From: Gammaproteobacteria bacterium
GTDB taxonomy: Bacteria > Pseudomonadota > Gammaproteobacteria > Steroidobacterales > Steroidobacteraceae
Assembly: GCA_027459765.1 (NCBI GenBank)
Contig: DAIDHD010000053.1
Coordinates: forward strand, 1-64,000
Length of the DNA: 64,000 bases
Direction: 5' to 3'
This document shows positions 5,752 to 24,521 of this stretch, piece by piece (the stretch's first letter is position 1; each line of letters begins with the position of its first letter). The position numbers and the translations under genes are program-made. The notes below the pieces were generated by a model, which made no database searches, had not been told where the DNA came from, and worked only from the letters and a program-made list of their open reading frames with translations.

Positions 5752-5779
5752 CGTCCGCCGTCCGCCCCCGGCGGCCACG

Positions 5780-9165: not shown

Positions 9166-9414
9166 GGGGATGCCTTCCATTGTGGGAGATGTCGAGTGTC
9201 GGGACGTCGGGGTGGGGCCGCGGGGCGCGGTCGGGCGGCGGCGCAACGGCCGGCGCCGCTGCGCGAAGGGCCGCGGTACGCCGTCGATTCGACCCGCCGT
9301 GAGAGGTATGCCCCTCTCGATTCATGCGCCTCTGCCTCCCCCTACTTCAGACGCGCCGTGCCGGCGGCCTGGCGTCGGTGTCCCGATGCCGGCGCCGTGA
9401 CCGGATGATTATTT

Positions 9415-9428
9415 TGAAAGCGCTTGCA
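9415..9428. promoter_or_regulatory. LacI-family operator 1
   Basis: TGAAAGCGCTTGCA is a near-perfect palindrome centred on AAGCGCTT. Two other copies at 11673 and 18566 share the core. It lies between the divergent GH17 lipoprotein operon and the lacI-type gene, immediately downstream of a minus-strand promoter-like pair. The local regulator probably represses the glucanase operon here and perhaps itself. Confidence 0.75.
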
Positions 9429-9429
9429 G

Positions 9430-9459
9430 AACCTACCGAAGCCGAACCGAGTTTGTCAA
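9430..9459 (-). promoter_or_regulatory. promoter of the GH17-barrel-GH81 operon
   Basis: On the minus strand TTGACA (9459-9454) is followed after 18 bases by TAGGTT (9435-9430), and operator 1 starts one base further down. The resulting leader to GTG 9165 would be about 240 bases. The rest of this gene-free stretch (9166-9528) shows nothing else I can name. Confidence 0.55.
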
Positions 9460-9528
9460 TCGCCATCGCGCCCTCGACGCGATACCATGGAGCGGATTGT
9501 GTTTCGTCAGGACGGTTTTCACGCGGAA

Positions 9529-10572
9529 ATGGCCAAGACAGAACCGCCGAGGCGGAGGACGCGCAGTCCAGGCGCCGCCGTGACCCTCGAAATGGTGGCC
9601 CGTGAGGCCGGCGTATCGCCGAGCACCGTGTCGCGCATCCTCAACGGCACGGCGCGCGTGCGCGACGCGAAGACCGTGGCGGTGCGCGCGGCGATCTCCC
9701 GGCTCAAGTTCACCCCGAACCCCGTGGCTCGCTCGCTCGCCCGCGGCAAGTCCGCCGAGGTGGGGGTGGTGATCCAGTCGATCGACAGTCCGTTCTACGG
9801 CGAGGCGCTCGCGGCCATCGAGAAGGCCCTGATACGCGCCGGTTATTCGGCGCTGTTCGTCAGCGGCCACTGGCGCGAGAGCGACGAGCGCAAGTCCATC
9901 GAGCACCTGATCTCGAGGCGGGTGGGCGGCATCATTCTGGTCACGAGCTGTCTGGCGGACGAGGAACTCCTGCGGCTCGCGCGTACGACGCCGCTGGTAC
10001 TGACCGGCCGGCGCCTGGCCGGTCCGAATCTGTACGCGGTCGACGTCGACAGCACCCCGGGGGCGCGCCTCGCCACCGATTACCTGTTGGACCAAGGGCA
10101 TCGGCGCATCGCCTTCATCGGCGGTTCCCGCGACCATCCCGATGCGCGGCAGCGGCTCGCCGGCTATCGGGCCGCTCTGGCGGCACGTCGCCTGCCCTTG
10201 CAGCCTCGCCTGATGACCGACGGCGACTACAGCGAGGCGGGCGGCTTCCAGGCGATGACCCGACTCCTGGAGCAGGGACAGAAGTTCACTGCGGTGTTCG
10301 CCGCCAACGATCAGATGGCGTATGGCGCGATGCTCGCCCTGCACCGACGGGGCCTGAAGGTTCCGCAGGACGTCTCGGTGGTGGGGTTCGACGATCTGCC
10401 CACGTCTTCGTACATCGTTCCACCGCTCACCACAGTGCACCGCTCGATCAACGAACTCGGCGACGCCGCCGCCGAGGCGATGATCGATCTGATCGAGCAA
10501 TTGCCGCCGGTCGCCAAGGTCTCGGCGCCGACGCTGGCGATACGCGACTCGACGCGGCCGCTGCGAGCCTGA
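9529..10572 (+). CDS. LacI-family transcriptional regulator of the glucan locus
   Basis: A 347-residue repressor from ATG 9529, a typical family length. The N-terminal helix-turn-helix reads VTLEMVAREAGVSPSTVSRILNG, with the hinge region around KFTPNPVARSLARG. It is followed by a periplasmic-binding-protein-like effector domain with EVGVVIQ, RIAFIGG, FAANDQMAYGAM and SVVGFDD. The protein should bind the GAAAGCGCTT palindromes and release them when a glucan-derived sugar binds; the sugar is unknown. Another in-frame ATG at 9487 exists, and neither has a convincing ribosome-binding site. It lies divergently from the glucanase operon across operator 1 and may regulate itself. Confidence 0.92.
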   Translation: MAKTEPPRRRTRSPGAAVTLEMVAREAGVSPSTVSRILNGTARVRDAKTVAVRAAISRLKFTPNPVARSLARGKSAEVGVVIQSIDSPFYGEALAAIEKALIRAGYSALFVSGHWRESDERKSIEHLISRRVGGIILVTSCLADEELLRLARTTPLVLTGRRLAGPNLYAVDVDSTPGARLATDYLLDQGHRRIAFIGGSRDHPDARQRLAGYRAALAARRLPLQPRLMTDGDYSEAGGFQAMTRLLEQGQKFTAVFAANDQMAYGAMLALHRRGLKVPQDVSVVGFDDLPTSSYIVPPLTTVHRSINELGDAAAEAMIDLIEQLPPVAKVSAPTLAIRDSTRPLRA

Positions 10573-10640: not shown

Positions 10641-11564
10641 CTAGTCGCCCGTCGGGGAGGCCAGTCCGAGTGAAGCGGCGAAGCGCTCGAAGGCCGGGTG
10701 CCAGGCGGGCGGGTTGCGCACGAAGATGAAGTGGCCGTTGTTCTTGTCCGGCGGCAGTTCCTGGAATTCGCCCCGACCTCCCGCGGCATGGAAGGCGTTC
10801 CACCAGCGCCGCGGTGCGACCGGCCCCCACAGGCGGTCGTTGGCGCTGTAGAGCCAGAGCGAGGGAATGCGCGTCGCGGGGGCGCGGCCTGCGTACCACT
10901 TCTCGAGGAGGTCGGCCCCGCACGGTGCGTCGGGATGTCGCAAGGAGTCGCCGCCGTCGCCGCCGGCGACGTTGACGACGCCGCGCAGCCCGGGCAGGGG
11001 ATCGGCCGCGGCGGCGACCGCGATCATCCCGCCGAAGGACTCCCCGACGAGGAGTCCCGAGGACGGATCCACGTAGCGCTGCCGGCGCGCGAAAGCCGCA
11101 ACCTGGCGCACCTCGTCGAGTGCGGCCGAAATCGCCGGCTCGAAACGCTTGGCGGCGCAGGGGCCGGTGTTCTCGAGATCAGGGCCGCCGGTCGCGCCGT
11201 AGCCGATGCGGGTGGGAATGAACACCGCGAAACCAAGACCGGCGAGGTAGCGCGCGTTGGCGGGATAGTCCACCCGTCCCAGGCGGGCGCGCTCGCTTTG
11301 CTCGGCGGCGCGTCCGTGCAGCAGCACCAGCCAGGGTGCGCGTGCATCACCTTCGCGACGCACGACGGTGACCACCAGGTCGCGGCGCAGGCCCGCGGCG
11401 CCGAAGCGCACCGGCACCGTGGCCACGTCCTCGACCAGCGATCGTGCCGGCGGCATCGCGATGGCGGTCGCGGCGACCGTGACGCACAGCGACAGGACCG
11501 TGCCGGCGAGCAGCGCGTGCGCACAGCAGAGGAGGGGCGGGCTACGGCGTCTGGACGTCGACAT
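10641..11564 (-). CDS. exported alpha/beta hydrolase (dienelactone-hydrolase-like)
   Basis: A 307-residue protein with an N-terminal hydrophobic signal (about residues 12-36). The alpha/beta hydrolase triad can be read as Ser in GESFGG, Asp in YSANDRLWG and His in NNGHFIF, with an oxyanion-type LLHGRAA near residue 82. This indicates an esterase or similar serine hydrolase in the periplasm. The substrate is not evident; polysaccharide de-acylation is a guess from its place inside the glucan locus. It is convergent with the LacI gene and divergent from the next lipoprotein operon. No operator copy precedes its own start other than the one facing the plus strand. Confidence 0.8.
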   Translation of the reverse strand: MSTSRRRSPPLLCCAHALLAGTVLSLCVTVAATAIAMPPARSLVEDVATVPVRFGAAGLRRDLVVTVVRREGDARAPWLVLLHGRAAEQSERARLGRVDYPANARYLAGLGFAVFIPTRIGYGATGGPDLENTGPCAAKRFEPAISAALDEVRQVAAFARRQRYVDPSSGLLVGESFGGMIAVAAAADPLPGLRGVVNVAGGDGGDSLRHPDAPCGADLLEKWYAGRAPATRIPSLWLYSANDRLWGPVAPRRWWNAFHAAGGRGEFQELPPDKNNGHFIFVRNPPAWHPAFERFAASLGLASPTGD

Positions 11565-11686: not shown

Positions 11687-11779
11687 AAAAGGGCGCGGCC
11701 GGCCGGTGCGGCACGAGCGGACTGCAAATCGTTCGTGGCGCGAATCGGTCGATCATTCGCACGCACTGGGGGAGTAGTC

Positions 11780-12751
11780 ATGTCCGCGACCCATCGTCTT
11801 CGCCCGACCGTCCCGTCCCGATCGCACGGCACCGGTGCCCGCATTGGCGCGCTCGCCGCCGTGGCGGTCTGCGGCGCCATGCTGGCCGCCTGCAACGGGG
11901 GCGGCACCATCCCGGCATCCTCGGCGGGCGGCAGCAGCGGATCCAGCGGTGGCACGACCGGCGGATCGAGCGGCGGCAGCAGTGGAGGCAGCAGTGGAGG
12001 CAGCAGCGGTGGCGGCGGCACCACCGTGACGCCGACTCCCTACACGCTGTTTTCGTCGAATTACGCCGCCTATGCGCAGCAGGCGCCGAGCGGAGCCTTC
12101 GTCCACTCGATACAGAAGGGCGACGTGCACACGGTGTTCGGCGGCAACATCAACTACGGCTGCTTCTCCTTCAGCCAGGCGCAGATGGACGGCACCCAGT
12201 TCTATGCCTTCCAGGCACAGGCCGATTCGAACGGCGGCCCGCCGAACGGCACCAACTGTCAGCCGCTCAGCAGCGCTGCGCCCACCACGGCGAGCGATTT
12301 CGCGGCCATGGTGATCTTCGCGCCCGGGACGAGTGCCGACACCACGAGCATCGGCACGCTCGACATCAGCCAGGCGAGCACCCTGCTCGTGCAGATGGGC
12401 AACATCTACACCCAGGGCGACGTGCCCGGCGCGGTCGGCGGCAATGCCACCGTGTTCACGATCACCCTCAACAACGACACCTCGACGAAGCAGGACGGAT
12501 CGGGTCAGACGGCGTTGTGCCAGTACGACCAGACCCTGACGACCATCGGGCGCGGCGCCACGTCGCCGCTCGGCGTGCTCAACTACGCCATCCCGCTGAG
12601 TTCGTTCACCTGCAGCAAGGGATCCATGGGGACCTTGCAGGCGAGCGGCGTGTCGAGTGTCTCCGTGGGTTTCTCCGGCGACAAGAATCCGAAGCTCGTG
12701 GCCAACGAACTCGACGTGATCGCCGTCGGCTACGTGGGCTTCACCAAGTGA
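11780..12751 (+). CDS. lipoprotein with Gly/Ser linker and candidate glucan-binding domain
   Basis: A 323-residue protein started at ATG 11780 behind a strong GGGGGAG. The signal ends in lipobox MLAAC (Cys38). A flexible Gly/Ser/Thr linker of about 40 residues follows, encoded by short imperfect GGSSGG repeats near 11930-12020. The C-terminal 240 residues are a beta-rich domain of no family I know. Its last part (an IPLSSFTCSKG segment, then SVSVGF) resembles in layout the VPLTAFTNVVQNC and VSVDF segments of the duplicated domain in the lipoprotein at 18663. A surface tether with a polysaccharide-binding head is the simplest reading. It is the first gene after operator 2. Confidence 0.8.
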   Translation: MSATHRLRPTVPSRSHGTGARIGALAAVAVCGAMLAACNGGGTIPASSAGGSSGSSGGTTGGSSGGSSGGSSGGSSGGGGTTVTPTPYTLFSSNYAAYAQQAPSGAFVHSIQKGDVHTVFGGNINYGCFSFSQAQMDGTQFYAFQAQADSNGGPPNGTNCQPLSSAAPTTASDFAAMVIFAPGTSADTTSIGTLDISQASTLLVQMGNIYTQGDVPGAVGGNATVFTITLNNDTSTKQDGSGQTALCQYDQTLTTIGRGATSPLGVLNYAIPLSSFTCSKGSMGTLQASGVSSVSVGFSGDKNPKLVANELDVIAVGYVGFTK

Positions 12752-12782: not shown

Positions 12783-14186
12783 ATGATTGCCGGGGACTCC
12801 GGGGAGAAAGCCCGGCGGCCGGGTGAGTTCGCGGACCTGGCGCGTCGTTTCGCGTCGCAGTTCACCTGGGGCGTCGCCACCAGCGCCTACCAGATCGAGG
12901 GCGCGGCGGCCATGGACGGGCGTGGCCCGTCCATCTGGGACGAATTCTGCGCGCGCCCCGGCGCCATCAAGGACGGCAGCAGCGGCGAACGGGCCTGCGA
13001 CCACTACCACCGAATGGCCGAGGATCTCGCGCTGATATCGGACCTCGGAATCGGCGCCTATCGGTTCTCGGTGTCCTGGCCGCGGGTGCAGCCGCTCGGC
13101 GCCGGCGCGTGGAACGAGCGCGGCTTCGATTTCTACGAGCGCCTCGTGGATGGTTTGCTCGAGCGTGACATCGCGCCGTACCTGACCCTGTATCACTGGG
13201 ATCTGCCGCTCGCGCTGCAGGCCGGCGGTGGCTGGGAGAATCGGGACACGGCGCTGCGATTCGTGGACTACGCCCGCGAAGTCTCACGACGGCTCGGCAA
13301 CCGCGTACGCTCCATCGCCACCCACAATGAGCCCTGGGTGGTCGCCGTTCTGGGTCACGAAGCCGGTATCTTCGCGCCCGGCCTCAAGAGCCGCAGGCTC
13401 GCCATGCAGGTGGCGCACAATCTGCTGCTCAGCCACGGTCTCGCGCTGCAGGCGCTGCGCGCGGACGGGGTCTCGACGCCGCTCGGGATCGTGCTCAACC
13501 AGGGACCGATCCACGCCGCCACCAACTCCCCCGAGGACCGGGCCAAGGCGCGCCTCGACGACGGTCTCACCATCCGCTGGTACATGGACGCCCTGCTGCT
13601 CGGTCGCTATCCTGCCGACGTGGTCGAGTTCCTGGGCGCGGACGCGCCGACCGTGACCGACGAGGACATGCGCACGATCAGCCAGCCCCTCGATTTCCTC
13701 GGCATCAACTACTACACCCGCAACGTCTCCGGAACGGGAGAGCCGCAGAAGCCGGCGGAGGATGGCCGCGAGCGGACCGACATGGGCTGGGAGGTATTCC
13801 CGGCGGGGCTCACCGAGCTGCTTCTGCGGCTGCACGATGACTATCCGCTGCCGCCCCTTTACATCATGGAAAATGGCGCCGCCTATCGCGACCAGCTGGA
13901 GGCCGGGCGCGTGCGCGACGAGGATCGCGTGCGCTACTTGCGCCGGCACGTGGCCGCGCTCGCCGATGCCATCGAGCGCGGCGTCGACGTTCGCGGTTAC
14001 TTCGTCTGGAGTCTGCTCGACAATTTCGAGTGGGCCGACGGTTATCGCAAGCGCTTTGGAATCGTCTACGTCGACTACGCGACGCAGCAGCGCATCCCCA
14101 AGGACAGCGCGCGCTGGTATCAGCAGTTGTGCGCGGCCCACCGCCACGGCGACACGCGACGAGTCGCGGGCGAGGCCGTGCTTTGA
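12783..14186 (+). CDS. GH1 beta-glucosidase, cytoplasmic
   Basis: A 467-residue family 1 glycoside hydrolase. The N-terminal FTWGVATSAYQIEGA motif, acid/base Glu183 in THNEPW and nucleophile Glu363 in IMENG are all intact, as is LLDNFEWADGY near the C-terminus. Length matches complete bacterial beta-glucosidases. There is no signal peptide, so it should split laminaribiose and short gluco-oligomers to glucose in the cytoplasm. It lies 31 bases after the lipoprotein, and its stop overlaps the TTG start of the GH16 gene, indicating one operon under operator 2. Confidence 0.95.
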   Translation: MIAGDSGEKARRPGEFADLARRFASQFTWGVATSAYQIEGAAAMDGRGPSIWDEFCARPGAIKDGSSGERACDHYHRMAEDLALISDLGIGAYRFSVSWPRVQPLGAGAWNERGFDFYERLVDGLLERDIAPYLTLYHWDLPLALQAGGGWENRDTALRFVDYAREVSRRLGNRVRSIATHNEPWVVAVLGHEAGIFAPGLKSRRLAMQVAHNLLLSHGLALQALRADGVSTPLGIVLNQGPIHAATNSPEDRAKARLDDGLTIRWYMDALLLGRYPADVVEFLGADAPTVTDEDMRTISQPLDFLGINYYTRNVSGTGEPQKPAEDGRERTDMGWEVFPAGLTELLLRLHDDYPLPPLYIMENGAAYRDQLEAGRVRDEDRVRYLRRHVAALADAIERGVDVRGYFVWSLLDNFEWADGYRKRFGIVYVDYATQQRIPKDSARWYQQLCAAHRHGDTRRVAGEAVL

Positions 14187-15127
14187 CGACGCGCGGCCCC
14201 CGGCGGACGAGGCGCGGCAGCGGAGCCGCCGCGCCGGCGTCCGCTGCCCGCTGGCGGCTCACCTGGAGCGACGAGTTCGAGGGCGACCGGGTCGATCCGG
14301 CGAAGTGGGACTTCGACATCGGCAACGGTTTCTTCGATTACCGCAGCCACACCTGGGTGCCCGGCTGGGGCAACGAGGAGCTGCAGTACTACACTGATCA
14401 ACCCCGCAACGTCGAAGTGCGCGACAGCCTGCTCACCATCCGCGCGCTGCGCGAGTCGCTGCACGGCTGCGGTTACACCTCCGCCCGCCTCAAGACTCGG
14501 CGCCGCGACGGCGGCGTGTTGTTCGCGCAGGCTTACGGGAAGTTCGAAGTCCGCGCCAAGGTGCCGCACGGCAAGGGACTGTGGCCCGCCCTGTGGATGC
14601 TGCCCGCCGAGGACGCGTACGGTGGCTGGGCCGCCTCCGGCGAGATCGACATCATGGAAATCGTCGGCGAGAAGCCCCACGAGTATCTCGGCTCGGTGCA
14701 CTTCGGCGGCACCTTTCCCAAGCGCGAACTCGTCACGCACGTGCACCCGTTCCGCGCCGGAGGCCACGTCGGGGAATTCCACGTCTACGCGGTGGAATGG
14801 GAGCCGGGCGAGATCCGCTGGCTGGTGGACGGGGAAGTCTGGGCGCGGCAGAACTTCTGGTGGTGCACCAGCCGGACCCGCGACGGCCGCGGCCTCGTGC
14901 CGCGGTCGGCCGCCGACTTGAATCCCTGGCCGGCACCCTTCGACCGGCCGTTCTATCTGCTGATGAACGTAGCCGTTGGCGGCAACTTCCCCGGCGAGCC
15001 CGATCCTTCGACCGAATTTCCCGCCGAGCTCGTGGTCGACTACGTGCGGGTCTATGAGCGTGTCGGCGGGTATCCGCCGCTCAAGCCCCGCGGCGATGGC
15101 GTCGTGCCCTTCCGCGGGCGGCGCTGA
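14183..15127 (+). CDS. GH16 beta-1,3-glucanase (laminarinase-like), no signal peptide
   Basis: A 314-residue family 16 enzyme. The catalytic signature GEIDIMEIVGE gives nucleophile Glu154, Asp156 and acid/base Glu159. LTWSDEFEG at the start of the domain, WPALWMLP and the closing VVDYVRVYE are classical. I start it at TTG 14183, which overlaps the GH1 stop as TTGA. The only ATG upstream in frame (14030) would lie inside GH1. The N-terminus is Arg/Ala-rich with no hydrophobic core, so the enzyme looks intracellular. That is unusual for GH16 and would mean it attacks imported oligosaccharides. The next gene begins 16 bases later. Confidence 0.9.
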   Translation: MTTRGPRRTRRGSGAAAPASAARWRLTWSDEFEGDRVDPAKWDFDIGNGFFDYRSHTWVPGWGNEELQYYTDQPRNVEVRDSLLTIRALRESLHGCGYTSARLKTRRRDGGVLFAQAYGKFEVRAKVPHGKGLWPALWMLPAEDAYGGWAASGEIDIMEIVGEKPHEYLGSVHFGGTFPKRELVTHVHPFRAGGHVGEFHVYAVEWEPGEIRWLVDGEVWARQNFWWCTSRTRDGRGLVPRSAADLNPWPAPFDRPFYLLMNVAVGGNFPGEPDPSTEFPAELVVDYVRVYERVGGYPPLKPRGDGVVPFRGRR

Positions 15128-15143
15128 ACGCGCAGGACGCACC

Positions 15144-17600
15144 GTGCAACGAGCGCCAGCAGCCACGTCCACACGCGATGCCGGCAAGCTCACGGTCGCC
15201 GAGAAGATCGGCTACGGATTCGGGGATCTGGCCTCGAACCTCTTCTGGCAGATGTTCTCGATCTTCATCGCCAAGTTCTACACCGACGTCTTCCTGCTGA
15301 GCGCTGCGACCATGGGGACCATGATGCTGGTGACCCGGGCCGGTGACGCGTTCATCGACCCGTTGATCGGTTCGCTCGCCGACCGCACCCGCAGCCGCTT
15401 CGGGCACTTCCGCCCTTATCTGCTGTGGGCCGCCGTACCGGTGGCGGTCACGGCGGTGCTCACGTTCTCGACCCCGAGTTTCGGCGGCACGGCGCGCGTC
15501 GTCTACGCGTACGTCACCTTGAGCCTGATGATGATCGCGTATTCCGCCATCAACATCCCGTACTCGGCGCTGCTCGGCGTGTTGACGCCCGATTCGAGGG
15601 AGCGAACGAGCGCGAGTTCCTATCGCTTCGTTATGGCGTTCCTGCCGGTGTTCCTCATCGTCAATGCGACCATGCCGCTCGCGACCTACTTCGGCGGCAG
15701 CGAGAACTCTCCCGAGGGCTGGCGCAGCACCATGATGCTGTACGCGGCTCTTGCGGTGCTCTTCTACTGGGCCACGTTCGCCATGACTCGCGAACGGGTG
15801 CAGCCGGAGCAGGGCCAGAAGACCCACTGGCGCGTCGATCTCGCGGACCTCGGCCGCAATCGACCGTGGCTGGTGCTGTGCGCGGTCGGCATCGCCGCGC
15901 TCACCTACAACAACATTCGCGGCACGGTGATCGTCTACTACTTCGATTACGTGGTGCCGGGAGGTAAACACTACTTCGGACCGGTCATGACCACCGCCGC
16001 CATCGCCTTCATCGCCGGCGTCATGGTGGCCTCGCCGCTCGCGAAGCGCTTCGGCAAGCGCAACTTCTACATGGTGTCGATGTCGCTGACGGCGGTGCTC
16101 ACGGCGGCCTTCTATTTCGTGCCTGCCGGCAACATCCCTCTGCTGTGGACGCTCAATGCGTTGATCACCCTGTGCGCGGCGCCGACCGCACCCCTGGTCT
16201 GGGCCATGTACGCGGACACCGCGGACTACTCGGAGTGGAAGTGCGGGCGGCGTGCGACGGGCCTGGTGTTCTCGGCGGCGTCCCTTTCGCAGAAGCTCGG
16301 CTGGGCGCTCGGCGGAGCCGGCACCGGCTGGCTGCTGGGTTACTTCGGGTACGTGCCGAACGTGGCGCAGAGTCCGCGCGCGCTCGAGGGCATGCGCCTG
16401 ATGATGAGCCTGATTCCCGCCGTCGGCGCGCTCGGTGCCGTCGCTGTGCTTTGGTTCTATCGGCTCGACGACCCGACGGTGGAGCGCATGGGGCGCGAGC
16501 TCGCCGAACGCCGCGCCCGCGAGCGCGATGGCGCCGCGGGCATCGACGCGGCCGGCACCGCTGCGGCGGTTGGCGAGCCGTCGAGGACGCAAGAGAAGGG
16601 GAGTGAGGCGATGTCGAAACCTGGGCACTCACCGCGGGCGGCAAGGCCGCAGCCGGCACGCACCGGCGCGGGCAGTCAGGAACTGACCGCCGGCCGCCAC
16701 TCGGGCGCCGACGCGGCGCGCGTCGTCAGCGCCACGGCGGCCGTACCGGCGCTGGCGCCGGACGAATACGCGAGTCTGCTCGCGGAGTATCGCTCGACCC
16801 TCGAGCACGGCGTGCCCGGACTGTGCTTCAGCCCGTACGTCGCCGGCCAGGCGCCCGGAACCCTGGTGACGCCGGAACAGATCCGCGCCCGGCTCGAGAT
16901 CATCCGCCCCTACACGGGCTGGATCCGCAGCTTCTCGTGCACCGAAGGGCACGAACGCACGGCGTCGATCGCACGCTCGCTCGGAATGCGTACCCTGGTG
17001 GGAGCCTGGCTCGGTGAGGACCGCGCGGCGAACGAGCGCGAGATCCTCGGTGCCATCGACGTGGCCCGCGGCGGCCACGCCGACCTGCTCGCCGTGGGCA
17101 ACGAGGTGTTGCTGCGCGAGGACCTCGGCGAGGACGAACTCATCGAACTCATCGAGCGGGTCAAGCGCGCCGTGCCCGGTGTCCCGGTGGGCTACGTCGA
17201 CGCCTACTATCTTTTCGAGCGCCATCCGCGCGTCGCCGCCGCATGCGACGTGATCTTCGCCAACTGCTATCCGTTCTGGGAGGGCTGCCCCCGGCCGGAG
17301 GCGCTGGCGTACATGCAATCGATGGTGCGGCGGGCGCAGCAAGCGGCGCCGGGCAAGCGGGTGATCCTGAGCGAGACCGGCTGGCCGCATCGCGGCAGCG
17401 CCTTTCACGGAGCACGGCCGTCGCCCGAGGACGCAATGCGCTACTTCGTCGACGTCGTGCGCTGGTGCCGAGAGTCCCAGGTCGAGTTGTTCTATTTCGC
17501 GGCGTTCGACGAGGCCTGGAAGGTGGGCGCGGAAGGCGACGTCGGCGCGTATTGGGGCCTGTGGGACGCGCAGGGACGGCTGAAATACCTGGAGAGATGA
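15144..17600 (+). CDS. GPH-type MFS sugar transporter fused in frame to a GH17 glucanase domain
   Basis: An 818-residue open frame begun at GTG 15144 with AGGA 7 bases before it. Residues about 17-470 form a twelve-helix sugar:cation symporter of the GPH family, with EKIGYGFGDLASN and DPLIGSLADRTRSRFGHFRPYLLW visible. A charged Ala/Arg/Ser-rich linker of about 70 residues follows. A GH17 domain covers about 535-818, with Glu654 in AVGNEV, Glu744 in LSETGW and FAAFDEAWK. The hydrolase would sit on the cytoplasmic face. No stop separates the parts, yet a good internal ribosome-binding site and ATG (16611) could yield the GH17 part alone. The GH17 gene at 17601 follows with no gap. Confidence 0.85.
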   Translation: MQRAPAATSTRDAGKLTVAEKIGYGFGDLASNLFWQMFSIFIAKFYTDVFLLSAATMGTMMLVTRAGDAFIDPLIGSLADRTRSRFGHFRPYLLWAAVPVAVTAVLTFSTPSFGGTARVVYAYVTLSLMMIAYSAINIPYSALLGVLTPDSRERTSASSYRFVMAFLPVFLIVNATMPLATYFGGSENSPEGWRSTMMLYAALAVLFYWATFAMTRERVQPEQGQKTHWRVDLADLGRNRPWLVLCAVGIAALTYNNIRGTVIVYYFDYVVPGGKHYFGPVMTTAAIAFIAGVMVASPLAKRFGKRNFYMVSMSLTAVLTAAFYFVPAGNIPLLWTLNALITLCAAPTAPLVWAMYADTADYSEWKCGRRATGLVFSAASLSQKLGWALGGAGTGWLLGYFGYVPNVAQSPRALEGMRLMMSLIPAVGALGAVAVLWFYRLDDPTVERMGRELAERRARERDGAAGIDAAGTAAAVGEPSRTQEKGSEAMSKPGHSPRAARPQPARTGAGSQELTAGRHSGADAARVVSATAAVPALAPDEYASLLAEYRSTLEHGVPGLCFSPYVAGQAPGTLVTPEQIRARLEIIRPYTGWIRSFSCTEGHERTASIARSLGMRTLVGAWLGEDRAANEREILGAIDVARGGHADLLAVGNEVLLREDLGEDELIELIERVKRAVPGVPVGYVDAYYLFERHPRVAAACDVIFANCYPFWEGCPRPEALAYMQSMVRRAQQAAPGKRVILSETGWPHRGSAFHGARPSPEDAMRYFVDVVRWCRESQVELFYFAAFDEAWKVGAEGDVGAYWGLWDAQGRLKYLER
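16596..16613 (+). promoter_or_regulatory. internal ribosome-binding site and start within the MFS-GH17 frame
   Basis: AAGGGGAG (16596-16603) lies 7 bases before ATG 16611, in the same frame as the transporter. Translation from here would give a free 329-residue GH17 protein, so fused and free forms may coexist. Confidence 0.5.
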
Positions 17601-18533
17601 ATGCGCGAGATAGGTCTGCCTTCCGGCAACGCCATCTGCTACTCGGGCTATCGGCACGGACAGAGTCCGGTCGAGCGCCGCTACCCGTCGCGCGAGGAAA
17701 TCGCCGAGGACCTGCGGATGATCGAACCGCATTGGCCGCTGATCCGCCTCTACGATTGCAGCCCGCACGCCGAACGGGTGCTCGAGGTGATTCGGCGCGA
17801 GAGGCTCGGCATCCGCGTCCTCCTGGGCGCAAATCTCGCCGCCGAACAGAGCAACGAGGCCTGTCCTTGGGGCGCGCATTACTCCGCCGCGGAACTCGAG
17901 GGCAACGTGCGGGACAACGACGCCGAGATCGAGCGGCTCGCCGGGCTTGCAGGCACCTACCCGGACATCGTATTCGCCGTCGCGGTGGGTAACGAGGCGA
18001 CCGTGGACTGGAGCGATCACATCGTGCCGGTGGCGCGTGTGCGCGAACTCGTGCGGCGAACGCGCGCGGCCGTCCGGCAGCCGATCACGGTGTGCGAGAA
18101 CTACGTCCCCTGGCAGGGGAAGCTGCGCGATCTGGTCGACGAGATCGACTTCATCTCGTTGCACACCTATCCGGTGTGGGAATCCAAGGGCATACACGAG
18201 GCGATCGGCTACACCGACGAGAATTTTCGCAGCGTCGCGCAGTTGTATCCCGGAGTGCCCGTGGTGATCAGCGAGGCGGGCTGGACCACGCGTTCCAACG
18301 GGCGCGGCATCCGCCCGGACAACGCCTCGGAGGAATTACAGGCGTCCTACTGCCGCGATCTCATCGGGTGGTCGCGAGAGCGGGGCGTGCTCACGTTCGT
18401 GTTCGAGGCCTTCGACGAACCCTGGAAGGGATCGCCGGATCCGTCGGAACCGGAGAAGCACTGGGGTCTTTTCACGGTCGATCGCAGGCCAAAGCGGGTC
18501 GTCCAGGAGCTGCTCGGCGCGGGATCCGTTTGA
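17601..18533 (+). CDS. GH17 beta-1,3-glucanase, cytoplasmic
   Basis: A 310-residue single-domain family 17 enzyme. Glu132 in AVGNEAT is the acid/base and Glu225 in VISEAGW the nucleophile; FVFEAFDEPWKG near the end matches the other GH17 domains here. There is no signal peptide. ATG 17601 follows the TGA of the fused gene directly and has GGAGAG just before that stop. It probably works with the fused GH17 and GH16 on imported beta-1,3-gluco-oligosaccharides. It is clearly diverged from the neighbouring fused GH17, so it is not a recent duplicate. Its stop codon lies inside the TTGACA box of the next promoter. Confidence 0.92.
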   Translation: MREIGLPSGNAICYSGYRHGQSPVERRYPSREEIAEDLRMIEPHWPLIRLYDCSPHAERVLEVIRRERLGIRVLLGANLAAEQSNEACPWGAHYSAAELEGNVRDNDAEIERLAGLAGTYPDIVFAVAVGNEATVDWSDHIVPVARVRELVRRTRAAVRQPITVCENYVPWQGKLRDLVDEIDFISLHTYPVWESKGIHEAIGYTDENFRSVAQLYPGVPVVISEAGWTTRSNGRGIRPDNASEELQASYCRDLIGWSRERGVLTFVFEAFDEPWKGSPDPSEPEKHWGLFTVDRRPKRVVQELLGAGSV

Positions 18534-18565: not shown

Positions 18566-18579
18566 TGAAAGCGCTTTCT
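18566..18579. promoter_or_regulatory. LacI-family operator 3
   Basis: TGAAAGCGCTTTCT is identical over 14 bases to operator 2 and sits at the same five-base distance from the -10-like box. It should place the lipoprotein gene under the local LacI regulator. Confidence 0.8.
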
Positions 18580-18662
18580 TGGAGAGGGGGGAGTTATCCA
18601 TGCAAGCCGCGCAGACGGGGACGCCTCGCCCATTATTCGAAGGACATCACGGGAGGCCATTC

Positions 18663-21296
18663 ATGAAGTTCGCCAGATTTTTCACCGTGTTCGCGCTGGT
18701 CGCGGGCGCCGCGACCGTGCTGCAGGGCTGTCAGCCGAAGGCGGCCACGGCACCGGGGCAACCCACGCTCGAATCGGTCGCCGTTGCGCCCAAGACGGTC
18801 ACGCTGAGCCCATCCGGCACGCAGGCGCTGAAGGTGACGGGGACGTTCAGCGACAATTCGACGCTGGATCTGACGTCGGCGGCCGCGTTTTCGAGCGACA
18901 ACGTCGCGGTGGCGACCGTGAGCGGGGCGGGAGTGATCACCGCCGTCGCCGCGGGTAGTCTGACGGCCCCGGGCACCGCGCATATTCTCGCGACCGTGAA
19001 CGGCAAGTCCGACACGGCGACCGTGACCGTGACGCCGCCGGGGCTGGTGTCGATCGCCGTGCAACCTGCGCAGCTGTCGCTCGCGGTCGGCGCCACCCAG
19101 GACTTGTCGGTGATCGGCACCTACAACCAGGGGGCGACGGCGGCGCTGACCACCGGCGAGACCTTTGCATCGGACCACACCAACGTGGCCACCGTCGATG
19201 CGAGCGGCAAAGTCACCGCCGTTGGGGCGGGAACGGCAACCATCACCGTCACCGACACAGCCTCGGGGCTGACGGCTACCGCATCGGTCACCGTGGCCGC
19301 GCCGCCGCCTGCGGCGAAGTTGGTATCGATCGCGGTGACGCCGACGAGCATTGCCCTCGCTGCGGGCGGCACACAGCAGCTCACCGTGACCGGCAAGTAC
19401 AGCGACGGCACCCAACTGCAATTGGCCGCCAGCGCCGAGAGCTTCGTCTCCTCGGCACCGGCCGTTGCCACGGTCAGTGCGGCCGGATTGGTGACCGCGG
19501 TTGCGACCGGAACGGCGACGATCACCGTGGTCGACACCGCCTCCGGGCTGGTGGCGGCGACCTCGCCGACGGTGACCGTGTCGACGACCACCGTGGCACC
19601 GACGCTGGTGTCGATCGCGTTGTCGCCGCTGACGGCGACGCTGGCCCCCGGCGCCACGCAGCAGCTGACGGTGATCGGCACCTACAGTGATAAATCGACC
19701 AAGACCCTGCCGGCGTCGGGTGAGACCTTCACGTCGCTCGCCACCGGCGTGGCCACGGTGAGCGCGACCGGACTCGTCACAGTCGCTGCCGGCGCCGCCA
19801 ACGGCGCCACCGCGACCATCACTGCGAAGGACGTCGCTTCGGGCGTCGCGACCACCACGGCCACCTCGACCGTCATCACGGTCTCCGCGCCGGCGACGAC
19901 CAACGTGCTGTCGACGGGTTTCAACTCCAATGGCACGACGACGACCTCCGTGTCCGGCCAGACCGGCACCTGGGCGGCGTATTTCGGCGGCAAGAACAAT
20001 CCCGCCGGCGGCAGCGGCGGTGGCTACGCGGACGCCAATCCGCCGGCGAATCCGAGCTACGAGTACGTGTATGTCCAGGACACGGCGGCGAACCTGGCTG
20101 GCTACACCTATCAGGGCATCACGATCACCGCTGCGACCGGTCAGACGGTGAGCGCTTCGGGCTACAACGCGTTGAGCTTCACGATGGGTGTTAATCCCGA
20201 GTGGTTCTCCTCGGGACCGGCCAACTTCGTGGTGATCCTCACGTCGAATGTGCCGGGCGTGTCGACCGGCGCGAGCGGCAATCCCGCCAACTGCAACCCG
20301 AAGGTGGCGGCGGTGGTGACTGCGAAGGCGAGCGCCTCGACCGCGTACAGCGTGCCGCTGACCGCGTTCACCAACGTGGTGCAGAACTGCGGCAACGCCA
20401 GCGTTACGCCGACGCAGATCCTCGCGGCGCCGATCGTATCGGTCGACTTCCAGGCCGACGGTGGCACCGCGGCCATCACCGCGAGCGGCCTGACCTCCAC
20501 CACCAACACCACGGTGCCGTTGTCGAGCAACGCGACGCTCTATCCGACCACCATCAGCGTGGCGGGTGGCGTGAGCTTTGCCAGCACCAGCACTGCGCCG
20601 GCGACGACCAACGTGCTGTCTACTGGGTTCAATGCCGCCGGCACGACGACGACCTCCGTGTCCGGCCAGACCGGTACCTGGGCGGCGTATTTCGGCGGCA
20701 AGAACAATCCCGCCGGCGGCAGCGGCGGTGGCTACGCGGACGCTAATCCGCCCGCGAATCCGAGCTACGAGTACGTGTATGTCCAGGATACGGCGGCGAA
20801 CCTGGCCGGCTACACCTATCAGGGCATCACGATCACCGCCGCGACGGGTCAGACGGTGGCAGCGGGCAGCAACCAGCATCTGAACTTCACGATGGGTGTT
20901 AATCCCGAGTGGTTCTCCTCGGGACCGGCCAACTTCGTGGTGATCCTCACGTCGAACGTGCCGGGCGTGTCGACCGGCGCGAGCGGCAATCCCGCCAACT
21001 GCAACCCGAAGGTGGCGGCGGTGGTGACGGCGACGGCGAGCGCCTCGACCGCGTACAGCGTGCCGCTGACCGCGTTCACCAACGTGGTGCAGAACTGCGG
21101 CAACGCCAGCGTTACGCCGACGCAGATCCTCGCGGCGCCCATCGTATCGGTCGACTTCCAGGCCGACGGCGGCACCGCGGCCATCACCGCGAGCGGCCTG
21201 ACCTCCACCACCAACACCACGGTGCCGTTGTCGAGCAACGCGACGCTCTATCCGACCACCATCAGCGTGGCGAGCGGGGTGAGCTTCGCGCCCTGA
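18663..21296 (+). CDS. large lipoprotein: four BIG2-like domains plus a duplicated C-terminal domain
   Basis: An 877-residue protein. Start ATG 18663 has GGGAGG 6 bases upstream and gives a clean lipoprotein signal with LQGC (Cys23). An in-frame ATG at 18600 also has GGGGGAG, but it would bury the signal behind 21 residues. Four bacterial Ig-like (BIG2) domains cover about 34-405, each with a VSIAVTPTSIALAAG-like opening and a VATVSAAGLVTAVA-like middle. Two nearly identical domains of about 235 residues follow (409-644 and 645-877), rich in Gly, Asn, Tyr and Trp, of no family I recognise. BIG2 stalks usually carry binding heads away from the cell. With operator 3 upstream, glucan capture is the likely role. 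Confidence 0.85.
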   Translation: MKFARFFTVFALVAGAATVLQGCQPKAATAPGQPTLESVAVAPKTVTLSPSGTQALKVTGTFSDNSTLDLTSAAAFSSDNVAVATVSGAGVITAVAAGSLTAPGTAHILATVNGKSDTATVTVTPPGLVSIAVQPAQLSLAVGATQDLSVIGTYNQGATAALTTGETFASDHTNVATVDASGKVTAVGAGTATITVTDTASGLTATASVTVAAPPPAAKLVSIAVTPTSIALAAGGTQQLTVTGKYSDGTQLQLAASAESFVSSAPAVATVSAAGLVTAVATGTATITVVDTASGLVAATSPTVTVSTTTVAPTLVSIALSPLTATLAPGATQQLTVIGTYSDKSTKTLPASGETFTSLATGVATVSATGLVTVAAGAANGATATITAKDVASGVATTTATSTVITVSAPATTNVLSTGFNSNGTTTTSVSGQTGTWAAYFGGKNNPAGGSGGGYADANPPANPSYEYVYVQDTAANLAGYTYQGITITAATGQTVSASGYNALSFTMGVNPEWFSSGPANFVVILTSNVPGVSTGASGNPANCNPKVAAVVTAKASASTAYSVPLTAFTNVVQNCGNASVTPTQILAAPIVSVDFQADGGTAAITASGLTSTTNTTVPLSSNATLYPTTISVAGGVSFASTSTAPATTNVLSTGFNAAGTTTTSVSGQTGTWAAYFGGKNNPAGGSGGGYADANPPANPSYEYVYVQDTAANLAGYTYQGITITAATGQTVAAGSNQHLNFTMGVNPEWFSSGPANFVVILTSNVPGVSTGASGNPANCNPKVAAVVTATASASTAYSVPLTAFTNVVQNCGNASVTPTQILAAPIVSVDFQADGGTAAITASGLTSTTNTTVPLSSNATLYPTTISVASGVSFAP
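19887..20594 (+). repeat. 708-bp tandem repeat, copy A
   Basis: Copy A begins GCGCCGGCGACGACC and encodes one full C-terminal domain. Copy B starts exactly 708 bases (236 codons) later. By eye the products differ at about a dozen positions, seven of them clustered after the GQTV motif. Confidence 0.9.
20595..21290 (+). repeat. 708-bp tandem repeat, copy B
   Basis: Copy B matches copy A almost base for base over long blocks, with the reading frame kept, and ends at the gene's last codons. The high DNA identity points to a recent or gene-converted duplication. Confidence 0.9.
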
Positions 21297-21368: not shown

Positions 21369-21710
21369 CGCGCCCTCAAAGGCCACCAGAGCAAATGTGG
21401 CGTGGCCGCAACAGTGAATTCGAGCGCGGCGCGAGCGCCGCCGGACGGGTCGGGGGAGACCGGCCGTGCACCGCCTGTCGGTTGCAAATGGGATCGATTG
21501 CAATGCCGCAAGTGGCTGAATTCGCGGCTCGAGCGCTGTAGGGATCGCTTGTGCCGGGTTCGGCGCCCACCTGGTGAACTGGGTTAACCCACGCCATCGG
21601 ATAAAAATTCACGTCCGGCCGTTGTAAACGGGACACAACTCGTTCAACATCGCGCCCCGGCGAGATATATGAACGAGCGGTATCGCCGCCGCCTTTTTTG
21701 AGGGATGTCC
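21369..21710. other. intergenic region before the TonB receptor
   Basis: There is no gene here. The only structured element I see is a perfect 12-base palindrome, TGGGTTAACCCA, at 21580-21591. It could be an operator for a regulator other than the LacI protein, because no GAAAGCGCTT copy occurs here. An AT-richer stretch (ATAAAAATTC) begins at 21601. Confidence 0.5.
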
Positions 21711-24521
21711 ATGAGCAAACATGCATTCGACCTGCGAGCCGCAGGGCTTGCGGTCGCAGCGTCCATTTTCGGCTTCACGACCGCCTCGGCGGCCGTCGCC
21801 GATGCCGCCAAGGGCGGCAGCGACGCCGCGACCGGCGATACCAACGCCACCCAGCTCGAGGAGGTGGTCGTCACCGGTACTTCGATCAAGGGCCTGAACG
21901 CCGAGACCGCCCTGCCGGTGCAGGTGCTCAAGGCCGACGACATCGCGCGCACCGGCGCGGACAACGTCGAACAGCTGTTCCGTCAGCTCACGGCGGCGTC
22001 GAGCGCCGGCACCACGGTGGCCGCGCAGGCTACCGGGTTCGGGACTGGCTCCATCTCGACCGTCTCGCTGCGCGGCCTCGGCAGCGGCCGCACCCTGATC
22101 CTGATCAACGGCCGCCGCTCGGCGGTGTACGGCGGTGGCTCGATCGGCGTCGCCGGCGACTCGGTGGACATCAGCGCGATTCCGATCGCGGCGATCGAGC
22201 GCGTCGAAATCCTGAAAGACGGCGCCTCGGCCATCTACGGCAGCGACGCCATCGCGGGCGTCGTGAACTTCATCCTCAAGAAGGACTTCCGCGGCCTGCA
22301 GGTGGACGCGGGCGCCGGCACCCCGACGCGCGCGGGCGGTGGCCAGGAGCAGCACGCCTCCGTCTTCGGCGGCATGGGTGACCTCAAGACCGACGGCTTC
22401 AACATCGACGGCGGCATCAACTTCGAGCACATGACGGCGCTCGCCGGCAAGGACCGGAGTTTCGCCAGTCGCTACGCCCCGCAGTACGGCAACGACGTGA
22501 CCTCGACGTTCGCCTTCCCGGGCAACGTGACCGTTCCGGGCCACGGCTTCCTGAGCCCGGCCTTTCCGAATTGCGGACCGGCGTCGTTCGTCAGCCAGTA
22601 CTTCCCGGGCCGTTGCCGCCTCGACAACTCGCCCTACGATTCGCTGGAACCCGAGCAGCAGAAGCTGTCCGGCATGGTGAATGCGAGCCTGCGCGTGGGC
22701 GACAACGCCACGCTGTACGGCGAGGCGAGCTACTCGCAGGTGAAGACGCAGACGACGGTGCAGCCGGTGCTGCTCGGCCAGTTCGCCGCCAACCTGGCGC
22801 CGACCAACCCGTACGTGGCCTACCTCAACAACCTGCTGGCGACGCAGTATCCGACCTACAACTCCAAGGGTCTGCGCGGAACGAGCGCGTTCCTCCTGCC
22901 GCCCTCGAGCCCGTACTATCCCGCGGGATTCGCCGCCCAGTACGGCCTCACCGGGCAGCCGTTGAACGTGTCGTTCTTCCGGGACTTCCCCAACGGCCAG
23001 CGCCAAGAGGGTGACACCGCGGACACCTCGCGCGTGGTCGCCGGCATCAAGGGCACGGCCGGGGGCTGGGACTACGACACCGCGCTGCTGTTCAGCGGCG
23101 TCACGGTGAGCGACAACCTGTTCTCGGGCTTTGCGCAGTATTCCAAGATCCTGCCGCTGCTCGACCAGGGCAACATCAACCCGTTCGGTCCGACGACGGA
23201 TCCGACCCAGATCGCGGCGGCGAAGGCCACCGAGTTCGTCGGCACGGATTACTCGACCCGCACCTCGATCGCCAGCGCGAGCGGCACCGCGAGCCGTACG
23301 CTGTTCGACCTGCCGGCCGGTCCGCTGAAGGCGGCCGTCGGCGCCGAGTTCCGGCACGAGACCTTCAAGTTCGACCCGTCGGCGGCGGTGCAGGGAGGCG
23401 ACATCGCCGGCCTGGGCGGCAATCAGCTGCCTGAGTCCGCGGCCCGCAACGTCGAGTCGGCGTTCGTGGAGTTCAACGCGCCCATCGTGCAGCACCTCGA
23501 CGGTGACGTCGCGGTTCGCTACGACAACTATCAGCGCGTCGGCAGCACGGTGAACCCGAAGGCCTCGCTGCGGTGGCAGCCGGAGTCCTGGCTGTTGCTG
23601 CGTACCTCCGCGGGAACGGGCTTCCGGGCGCCCTCGCTCACCGACCTCTACGCGGCGCAGGCGACGAGCGTGACCTCCAACGGCACGCGCGACCCGATCC
23701 AGTGTCCGACCTTCAACGCCAACAACCCGGCCTGCAGCTTCCAGTTCAACACCATCACCGGTGGCAACCCGAACCTGCAGCCCGAGAAGTCGACCACGTT
23801 GACCTTCGGCACGGTGCTGCAGCCGATCGACAATCTGTCCATCGACCTCGACTCCTTCTGGATCTACCTGAAGGACTCGATCGTGGTCGGCGGCCTGCCG
23901 TACTCGTACTTCCTGCAGAACGCGCAGACCGCGACCCAGTACGCGTACCTGATTAACCGTGATGCCAACGGCAACATCGTCTCGATCGCGCAGACCAACC
24001 AGAACCTGTTCAAGACCAACGTGAGCGGCCTGGATTTCGACATCAAGTACGCCTTCAACCTGGGCAACGCCGGGCGGCTGAACCTGATGCTCGACGGCAC
24101 CTACTTCTACAAGTACGCCAGCCAGAACCCGGACGGAAGCTGGACCGGTCAGCTCGACCAGGGTCTCGGCTCGGGTGGCCTGATCTCGCGTGCTCGCTAC
24201 GTGGGCGTCGTCGACTACCAGGTCGGTTCCTGGGATGCGTCGCTCACCCAGAACTGGCAGAAGAAGTACCACGACTCGTTGTCCAACGTGACGCAGGTGG
24301 GTCGCGAAGTGTCGGCGTACGACACGGTCGACGGCCAGCTGTCCTATCTGGGCTTGGAGTCCTTCAAGTTCACGGTCGGCGCCCGCAACCTGTTCGACAA
24401 GAATCCGCCGTACGCCAACTACGCGGCCGCGGCGAACAACTTCATCGGCGGCTACGACCTGTCCTACGGCGATCCGCTGGGCCGGTTCGTGTACTTCAAC
24501 GTCACCTACAAGATGCACTGA
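21711..24521 (+). CDS. TonB-dependent outer-membrane receptor, probably for beta-glucan oligosaccharides
   Basis: A 936-residue receptor. ATG 21711 is placed 6 bases after AGGG; ATG 21705 is too close to it. A signal peptide is followed by a TonB-box-like LEEVVVTGTSI. The plug domain contains VSLRGLGSGRTLILINGRR and IYGSDAIAGVVNFILK. The barrel ends in GRFVYFNVTYKMH. No SusD partner is present, as usual in Proteobacteria. It is separated from the lipoprotein gene by a terminator and lacks the LacI operator. Assignment to glucan uptake rests on position only. A terminator follows the stop. Confidence 0.9.
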   Translation: MSKHAFDLRAAGLAVAASIFGFTTASAAVADAAKGGSDAATGDTNATQLEEVVVTGTSIKGLNAETALPVQVLKADDIARTGADNVEQLFRQLTAASSAGTTVAAQATGFGTGSISTVSLRGLGSGRTLILINGRRSAVYGGGSIGVAGDSVDISAIPIAAIERVEILKDGASAIYGSDAIAGVVNFILKKDFRGLQVDAGAGTPTRAGGGQEQHASVFGGMGDLKTDGFNIDGGINFEHMTALAGKDRSFASRYAPQYGNDVTSTFAFPGNVTVPGHGFLSPAFPNCGPASFVSQYFPGRCRLDNSPYDSLEPEQQKLSGMVNASLRVGDNATLYGEASYSQVKTQTTVQPVLLGQFAANLAPTNPYVAYLNNLLATQYPTYNSKGLRGTSAFLLPPSSPYYPAGFAAQYGLTGQPLNVSFFRDFPNGQRQEGDTADTSRVVAGIKGTAGGWDYDTALLFSGVTVSDNLFSGFAQYSKILPLLDQGNINPFGPTTDPTQIAAAKATEFVGTDYSTRTSIASASGTASRTLFDLPAGPLKAAVGAEFRHETFKFDPSAAVQGGDIAGLGGNQLPESAARNVESAFVEFNAPIVQHLDGDVAVRYDNYQRVGSTVNPKASLRWQPESWLLLRTSAGTGFRAPSLTDLYAAQATSVTSNGTRDPIQCPTFNANNPACSFQFNTITGGNPNLQPEKSTTLTFGTVLQPIDNLSIDLDSFWIYLKDSIVVGGLPYSYFLQNAQTATQYAYLINRDANGNIVSIAQTNQNLFKTNVSGLDFDIKYAFNLGNAGRLNLMLDGTYFYKYASQNPDGSWTGQLDQGLGSGGLISRARYVGVVDYQVGSWDASLTQNWQKKYHDSLSNVTQVGREVSAYDTVDGQLSYLGLESFKFTVGARNLFDKNPPYANYAAAANNFIGGYDLSYGDPLGRFVYFNVTYKMH

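Follow-up and report, generated by a model that had tools for sequence, protein, structure and literature searches.

A GPH symporter fused in frame to a GH17 domain in a laminarin-type locus of Steroidobacteraceae, with a possible internal translation start

Results

A transporter and a GH17 domain share one frame

We analyzed a 64,000-nucleotide stretch of a gammaproteobacterial genome of the family Steroidobacteraceae (assembly GCA_027459765.1, contig DAIDHD010000053.1; hereafter the window) and found that one of its genes encodes, in order, a GPH symporter, a linker that is disordered and rich in Ala and Pro, and a glycoside hydrolase family 17 (GH17) domain with two catalytic glutamates. 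This fusion is real, conserved, and functional-looking. Its product is probably an inner-membrane GPH cation symporter carrying a flexibly tethered, active cytosolic GH17 β-1,3-glucan hydrolase, serving the uptake step of a laminarin-type locus. Fusions of a transporter with a carbohydrate-active enzyme (CAZyme) are already known; what is new here is the separate descent of this fusion and a possible second translation start within it.

The fused gene is a single uninterrupted frame of 818 codons at window positions 15144–17600, read from a GTG start that was chosen from the sequence; in its widest reading, the frame spans 14976–17600. Its parts are as follows (aa, amino acids; pLDDT, predicted local distance difference test).

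15144–17600, forward strand: fused gene for GPH symporter, linker, and GH17 domain, 818 aa; GTG start with AGGA upstream at 15135–15138
15174–16526, forward strand: GPH (MFS_2) transporter domain, aa 11–461, with the acidic pair D68/D72; from profile matches and likeness to MelB
16527–16763, forward strand: linker, aa 462–540, rich in Ala, Gly, Pro, and Ser, with aa 475–531 at pLDDT below 50; from composition and structure model
16764–17597, forward strand: GH17 domain (GH17a), aa 541–818, with E654 and E744; from profile, alignment, model, and fold match

The Pfam profile MFS_2 (PF13347) matched aa 23–443 with 350 bits (cutoff 27), and the NCBIfam GPH profile TIGR00792 scored 409.8 bits against a curated cutoff of 231. 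The GH17 profile (PF00332) matched aa 739–815 with 38.3 bits (cutoff 28.2). The initial annotation had described a transporter that continues in frame, through a linker, into a GH17 domain that retains the two catalytic glutamates. This description holds: both domains are matched by profiles within the 818-aa frame, the linker lies at about aa 462–540 as described, and the glutamates are E654 in a GNE motif (codon 17103–17105) and E744 in a SETGWP motif (codon 17373–17375). Both glutamates, as well as D68 and D72, were invariant in a seven-member alignment.

The fusion is conserved in other genomes

Relatives were collected by a genome_contigs scan of 84,980 species genomes with two transporter-derived peptide patterns, so that GH17-only genes cannot be found in this way and fusions may be missed. 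The scan confirmed 110 relatives, and the best 80, corresponding to 79 loci, were retained. The same in-frame fusion was present in 25 of these 79 best loci. Among them are five other genomes of the same family, which carry a full-length single-frame fusion with 65–68% identity (217 genomes searched), and a sixth fused relative, G002, from the same genus. The titles of the fused carriers name Steroidobacteraceae, Rubrivivax, other metagenome-assembled genomes (MAGs) labelled Betaproteobacteria, and a RefSeq contig of Paucibacter sp. KBW04 (L098). The 26 fused genes stand at 56–69% identity to the window's gene.

The linkers of these 26 genes contain no in-frame stop in 1804 codons, compared with 35 and 28 stops in the other two frames. 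In the 25 relatives the linker is 34–99 aa long and its sequence differs strongly from gene to gene; pooled over the 26 genes, it consists of 21% Ala and 16% Pro. The ratio of nonsynonymous to synonymous substitution rates (dN/dS) in the linker was 0.24–0.78, that is, below 1, in seven of eight pairs, the eighth pair being saturated, and was lower in the domains (0.03–0.31). A sequencing error or mis-assembly is ruled out because 25 other genes are fused in frame; this also disposes of the refutation proposed in the initial annotation, namely an error hiding a stop near 16540–16610, since the other genes carry the open frame as well.

The fusion is nevertheless uncommon. The family of the Paucibacter KBW04 genome (299 genomes) gave 13 strong matches (E ≤ 1e-150), and only three of these, G442, G443, and G607, were seen to be fused. 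In G549, the GH17a gene lies in a 755-codon frame with no MFS match. Another 17 genomes with an unfused transporter yielded no clear new fusion.

Split and unfused arrangements

Several loci lack the fusion, and those of G012 and seven further genomes weigh against our reading of the fusion as a coupled importer and hydrolase. In G012, from the same genus as the window, the MFS gene stands beside GH81 and a separate GH17a gene lies between GH16 and GH17b. In seven genomes (G034, G147, G148, G150, G143, G140, and G138), the transporter is present and its locus showed no GH17a; some of these contigs end close by. G167 shows GH17a alone, its MFS gene running off the contig end, and in L109 the two genes are adjacent and unfused, in the opposite order.

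In the Opitutales locus L142 (5989–8292), a type I GPH transporter directly precedes GH17a in the same frame. The transporter stop lies 39 bases before the GH17a ATG, and the interval contains another in-frame stop as well as a GGAG. The corresponding genome, G1168, was listed with a 778-codon frame at this MFS–GH17a pair, which the two stops part in L142. This arrangement likely resembles a pre-fusion state. In G002 (L032, 12246–14573), the intact fused gene stands beside GH81 and not between GH16 and GH17b, which suggests that the fused pair was moved or kept as a unit.

These variants bear on whether the joining of neighboring genes was neutral, in which case only the two domains would matter and the tether would be a tolerated feature without function. 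The variable length (34–99 aa) and sequence of the linkers, a linker dN/dS of up to 0.78, and the interleaving of fused and unfused states on both the MFS and GH17 trees would fit such a history. We nevertheless consider it unlikely, as the frame is still open in 26 genes that have diverged to 56–69% identity to the window's gene, GPH transporters became fused to this GH17 subgroup on two or more occasions, and G002 holds the pair intact at a different place.

Structure and predicted topology

An AlphaFold2 model of the fused protein, built on a 69-row alignment, consisted of a confident helical transporter and a TIM-barrel domain separated by aa 475–531, the stretch of low pLDDT. The predicted TM-score (pTM) was 0.60, so the mutual placement of the two domains is not fixed by the model. 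In Foldseek searches, the transporter domain was best matched to MelB (TM-score 0.83 by target, 26% identity in the alignment), which is also its nearest relative in the Protein Data Bank (PDB) by sequence (7e-43). D68 and D72 aligned without a gap to the cation-site pair D55/D59 of MelB at an offset of 13. The GH17 domain was matched to the GH17 glucanosyltransferase of Rhizomucor miehei (4WTR; TM-score 0.87 by target), and sequence searches likewise gave this enzyme, RmBgt, as the closest solved GH17 relative. The model and the Foldseek match both show the (β/α)8 fold in this domain.

With loops taken from the helices of the model, Lys and Arg make up 27 of the 126 residues in the predicted inner loops and tails and 2 of the 59 in the outer loops. 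These loop charges place both ends of the transporter, and hence the GH17 domain, in the cytosol in the model. The cytosolic position that the initial annotation had assumed for the hydrolase is thus supported by the GPH fold and by this charge distribution.

The GH17 domain is predicted to be a hydrolase

The residues E654, E744, W712, and E713 were conserved in all 78 GH17a domains compared, and the catalytic glutamates are retained in 26/26 proteobacterial fused domains and in 10 Bacteroidota fusions. In RmBgt17A, replacement of a tyrosine (Y102) by alanine abolished transfer, as related in PMC11005184. The equivalent position is Leu in 26/26 proteobacterial fused domains, and the acceptor platform Y102/W157/E158 of RmBgt17A reads Leu/Trp/Glu in the fused domain, leaving the transferase platform incomplete. 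Met occurs at this position in FbGH17B (PMC11005184). On the basis of the Leu at the Tyr position, the GH17 domain is predicted to be a hydrolase.

It could instead be a glucanosyltransferase like RmBgt17A or MlGH17B that remodels imported oligosaccharides. RmBgt is the nearest solved relative both by sequence and by fold, and the equivalents of W157 and E158 are conserved. We regard this as improbable, given that the Tyr reported to be essential for transfer is Leu throughout the fused set and that a fused relative from Formosa releases glucose (PMC6246565).

In the Bacteroidota loci L269–L278, the free neighboring GH17a keeps the transferase Tyr in 9/10 cases and the fused copy in 0/10 (Leu in six, His in three, and Phe in one); a split of roles between free and fused copies is possible there. 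A point against reading the Leu as a mark of the fused form comes from the 32 other, non-Bacteroidota free domains, which have Leu in 29, Tyr in two, and His in one, so that Leu does not distinguish fused from free domains in Proteobacteria.

A possible internal translation start in the linker

The linker contains a candidate second start (SD, Shine-Dalgarno).

16598–16603, forward strand: SD-like GGGGAG in the linker, about −8.3 kcal/mol with the anti-SD sequence
16611–17600, forward strand: possible free GH17 product beginning MSKPGHS, 329 aa, from an internal ATG that is like the starts of relatives' free GH17a genes

The ATG at 16611 is preceded by AAGGGGAG. Among in-frame ATGs in and around the linkers of the 26 fused genes, 10/45 had an SD of −6.2 or better, versus 18/648 ATGs within the domains (Fisher, 2.7e-6), and 0/23 out-of-frame linker ATGs had a strong SD. 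An internal site of this kind was found in nine genes (the window's, L087, L088, L089, L091, L092, L093, L097, and L108), 37–61 codons before the GH17 domain and with Ser, Asp, or Thr as the next codon. Similar blocks, beginning MS[K/R/N/Q], open 22 free GH17a genes for which an MS start could be picked. From the end of the MFS domain to the internal ATG, the nine genes contain no in-frame stop in 301 codons, versus 4 and 14 stops in the other frames, so both products are open.

Internal starts were then compared with the presence of a free GH17a copy. Linker ATGs whose SD reached −5.5 or better were present in 0/9 fused genes accompanied by free GH17a and in 11/17 without it (Fisher, 0.0024). 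The genes with a free copy are L090, L094, L103–L107, and L132, where it lies in the locus, and L114, where it was found by a genome check. No free GH17a was found elsewhere in the window's genome; these checks in the family genomes scored four candidates per genome, and MAGs may be incomplete. In the L087 genome, a GH17a fragment of 116 aa at the edge of a contig was counted as the same gene. The mutual exclusion of internal start and free copy is no more than suggestive.

Several observations count against a functional internal start. The SD thresholds were picked after the linkers had been seen; two of the 10 strong ATGs neighbor each other in L087, and another (L094) lies in the end of the transporter rather than in the linker. 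With the amino acids fixed, the SD reached P < 0.05 in only 2/23 genes (6/23 when linker codons were shuffled). The start is absent from 6/17 fused genes without a free copy (L095, L096, L098, L100, L101, and L102), which rules it out as a universal feature. Finally, the contrast between genes with and without a free copy reduces to one to two independent pairs and cannot reach significance, and the internal start is unproven for this reason.

The fusion in Proteobacteria probably arose when a GPH gene was joined upstream to a free GH17a gene that brought its own translation start along, and in a good part of its members, the window's included, the old start (SD and ATG 16611) then survives in the linker. 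The initial annotation had proposed that an internal ribosome-binding site and ATG 16611 may also produce free GH17; the site and the ATG are indeed present and recur in some relatives, and the production of free GH17 is the part that stands unproven. Some free soluble GH17a may also be made from this start, a question on which we stand close to even and lean slightly toward no. The SD and ATG could equally be an unused or unselected relic of the old free gene, with only the fusion being made, and we give this the same near-even standing. A relic would account for the start missing from six of the 17 genes without a free copy and for the synonymous-codon test being significant in so few genes; it fits less well with an SD-ATG-Ser/Asp/Thr block that survives in nine genes while the rest of the linker differs, and with the excess of strong SDs among linker-region ATGs (10/45 vs 18/648).

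A free GH17a gene lies next to the fusion in all 10 Bacteroidota loci fetched. The proteobacterial fusion might be a two-product gene giving a membrane-tethered GH17 and a soluble GH17 from the inherited internal start, both forms being needed and obtained either by one gene with two starts or by two genes. We offer this only as a tentative proposal, more doubtful than not. If it is true, bacteria would have arrived convergently, on at least two occasions, at coupled cleavage by tethered and soluble enzyme; should the internal start be used, the gene would illustrate cleanly how a single gene can supply one enzyme in both tethered and free form.

Separate descent from the Bacteroidota fusions

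The initial annotation knew of no described example of such a fusion. This is ruled out by two publications. Unfried et al. (2018; PMC6246565) described FbGH17b of Formosa, with an N-terminal MFS and a C-terminal GH17 domain, and measured exo-β-1,3-glucosidase activity; the enzyme attacks debranched laminarin oligosaccharides in an exo manner. By their account, such fusions are common in marine Flavobacteriia; they proposed a coupling of hydrolysis and uptake and stated that they knew of no described transporter–CAZyme fusion in other bacteria. A later study (PMC10108472, 2023) reported GH17–MFS fusions in SAR92, Luminiphilus, and SAR86 MAGs, which are marine Gammaproteobacteria. Among the open-licence literature matches listed, none was found that mentions such a fusion from Steroidobacteraceae or Burkholderiales, and the main text of PMC8371827 contains neither "fusion" nor "fused".

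Bacteroidota fusions were sought in 395 Bacteroidota-class genomes around a Bacteroidales-labelled MAG, with two candidates scored per genome. Eleven GH17 frames of more than 770 codons were listed, and 10 of them were fetched (L269–L278; G1142 was left out). All 10 were MFS–GH17 fusions of 777–855 aa directly adjoining a free GH17a gene, and GH30 lay beside the fusion in the one locus tested.

For the trees, near-copies were dropped by identical stretches; the first MFS tree excluded relatives below 375 bits or 380 aa, the first GH17a tree excluded sequences below 220 bits or 220 aa, and the later MFS tree, which included the Bacteroidota, was built from alternate rows of the type I set. In the MFS tree, the transporters of the Bacteroidota fusions fell on a different, deep GPH branch (support 100; branches of 1.56 and 1.93). 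TIGR00792 scored 182 and 195 bits on two of them, under the cutoff of 231, compared with 410 for the window's gene. In a 78-row GH17 tree, a single origin of all 36 fused GH17 domains was rejected by the approximately unbiased (AU) test (p-AU 9.3e-5). The other MFS branch and the AU rejection indicate that the proteobacterial fusion is, on these trees, independent of the 10 Bacteroidota fusions examined: it would work alike and is of separate descent.

Placing the 26 proteobacterial fused rows in one clade gave a p-AU of 0.039, and 0.052 without the L103–L107/L132 group. The fused GH17 domains of that group keep their catalytic residues and fall together with the free GH17a of their own loci (support 100), on a branch about 1.0 changes per site long. 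A branch of this length makes a long-branch error possible for their placement. Either a second fusion event in Proteobacteria or rapid change following a duplication may account for this group.

The fused gene lies in a β-1,3-glucan locus

The genes around the fusion are listed below. N-termini were judged by a simple hydropathy check and not by a signal-peptide program.

3397–5862, reverse strand: GH81 (endo-β-1,3-glucanase family) with a hydrophobic N-terminal stretch; from profile and hydropathy
7198–9246, reverse strand: lipoprotein-like protein with a C-terminal GH17; from profile and hydropathy
9424–10572, forward strand: LacI-family regulator; from profile matches
10641–11564, reverse strand: α/β-hydrolase-like protein, under Pfam cutoffs, found in the loci of several relatives
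11735–12751, forward strand: secreted or lipoprotein-like protein without a Pfam match
12783–14186, forward strand: GH1 β-glucosidase (TIGR03356, 612 bits), no hydrophobic N-terminus seen
14030–15127, forward strand: GH16, its true start inside the open reading frame, no hydrophobic N-terminus seen
17601–18533, forward strand: second, separate GH17 (GH17b), 310 aa, no hydrophobic N-terminus seen
18579–21296, forward strand: lipoprotein-like protein with four Big_2 matches
21705–24521, forward strand: TonB-dependent receptor; from profile

A hydrophobic N-terminal stretch was seen in GH81, the GH17 lipoprotein, the 11735–12751 protein, the Big_2 protein, and the TonB receptor, and by the same check none was seen in GH1, GH16, or GH17b. 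The gene order from the GH17 lipoprotein through the Big_2 protein also occurs in G135 and G139. This set of neighbors points to a β-1,3-glucan of the laminarin kind, and by gene neighborhood the fused gene belongs to a laminarin-type locus.

The 11735–12751 protein adjoins GH1 in several relatives of the locus. The C-terminal end of the Big_2 lipoprotein consists of two near-identical modules of 229–236 aa (217/229 residues the same). These had no Pfam match at E ≤ 0.001 and are perhaps a glucan-binding domain.

Discussion

We propose that the TonB receptor, GH81, and the GH17 lipoprotein would act at the outer membrane or in the periplasm, bringing laminarin-derived oligosaccharides into the periplasm, and that the symporter would import laminari-oligosaccharides across the inner membrane, probably coupled to a cation. 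The GH17 domain, on a flexible tether of about 80 residues of which 57 are predicted to be disordered, could trim the oligosaccharides as they emerge, and GH16, GH17b, and GH1, which are presumably cytosolic, would finish the degradation to glucose. Tethering might keep free oligosaccharide low at the inner gate and thereby favor one-way uptake. Coupling of import to cleavage, as suggested in the initial annotation, is supported as the natural reading of a real fused gene with a cytosolic GH17 domain.

In LacS, a IIA domain regulates the transporter. The GH17 domain, which likewise sits at the cytosolic C-terminus of a GPH symporter, could by analogy be a sensor or regulator rather than a catalyst. 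This seems very improbable, as the catalytic residues are kept in every proteobacterial fusion (26/26) and in the 10 from Bacteroidota.

The joining of importer and enzyme is thus not peculiar to marine Flavobacteriia. In Steroidobacteraceae and Betaproteobacteria-labelled genomes, a different GPH transporter appears to have been joined separately to the same GH17 subgroup, and the fact that the arrangement was invented repeatedly speaks for a genuine advantage in coupling uptake to cleavage. This idea becomes testable through the fused, split, and unfused natural variants.

Among known systems, the MelB melibiose symporter (PDB 4M64 and 9OLI) shares the GPH fold and has its acidic cation-site pair in register with that of the fused protein; unlike the fused protein, it has no enzyme domain. 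MlGH17B and RmBgt17A (PDB 4WTP/4WTR) have GH17 domains of the same kind as the fused one, and the MlGH17B locus also has an MFS gene; both are free enzymes that keep the transfer Tyr, whereas the fused domain has Leu. MlGH17B of Muricauda lutaonensis is a β-1,3-glucanosyltransglycosylase predicted to be cytosolic (PMC11005184 and PMC13188888). The fusions of SAR92, Luminiphilus, and SAR86 are, as here, MFS–GH17 fusions in laminarin loci of Gammaproteobacteria, a likeness drawn from the description in PMC10108472 alone. The Bacteroidota fused loci, with their adjacent free GH17a, follow the layout published for the Formosa and Muricauda loci, whereas in the window's genome no free GH17a was found and the fused gene keeps a candidate internal start. 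FbGH17b itself (FORMB_24740, Formosa sp. Hel1_33_131) was compared through the 10 fusions L269–L278 and not by its own sequence. Its MFS domain has 12 transmembrane segments (PMC6246565), and the Bacteroidota MFS domains tested are of the GPH/MFS_2 type. This kind of protein and the product of the window's gene both combine an N-terminal MFS with a C-terminal GH17 domain in a laminarin locus, and both are without Tyr at the transfer position.

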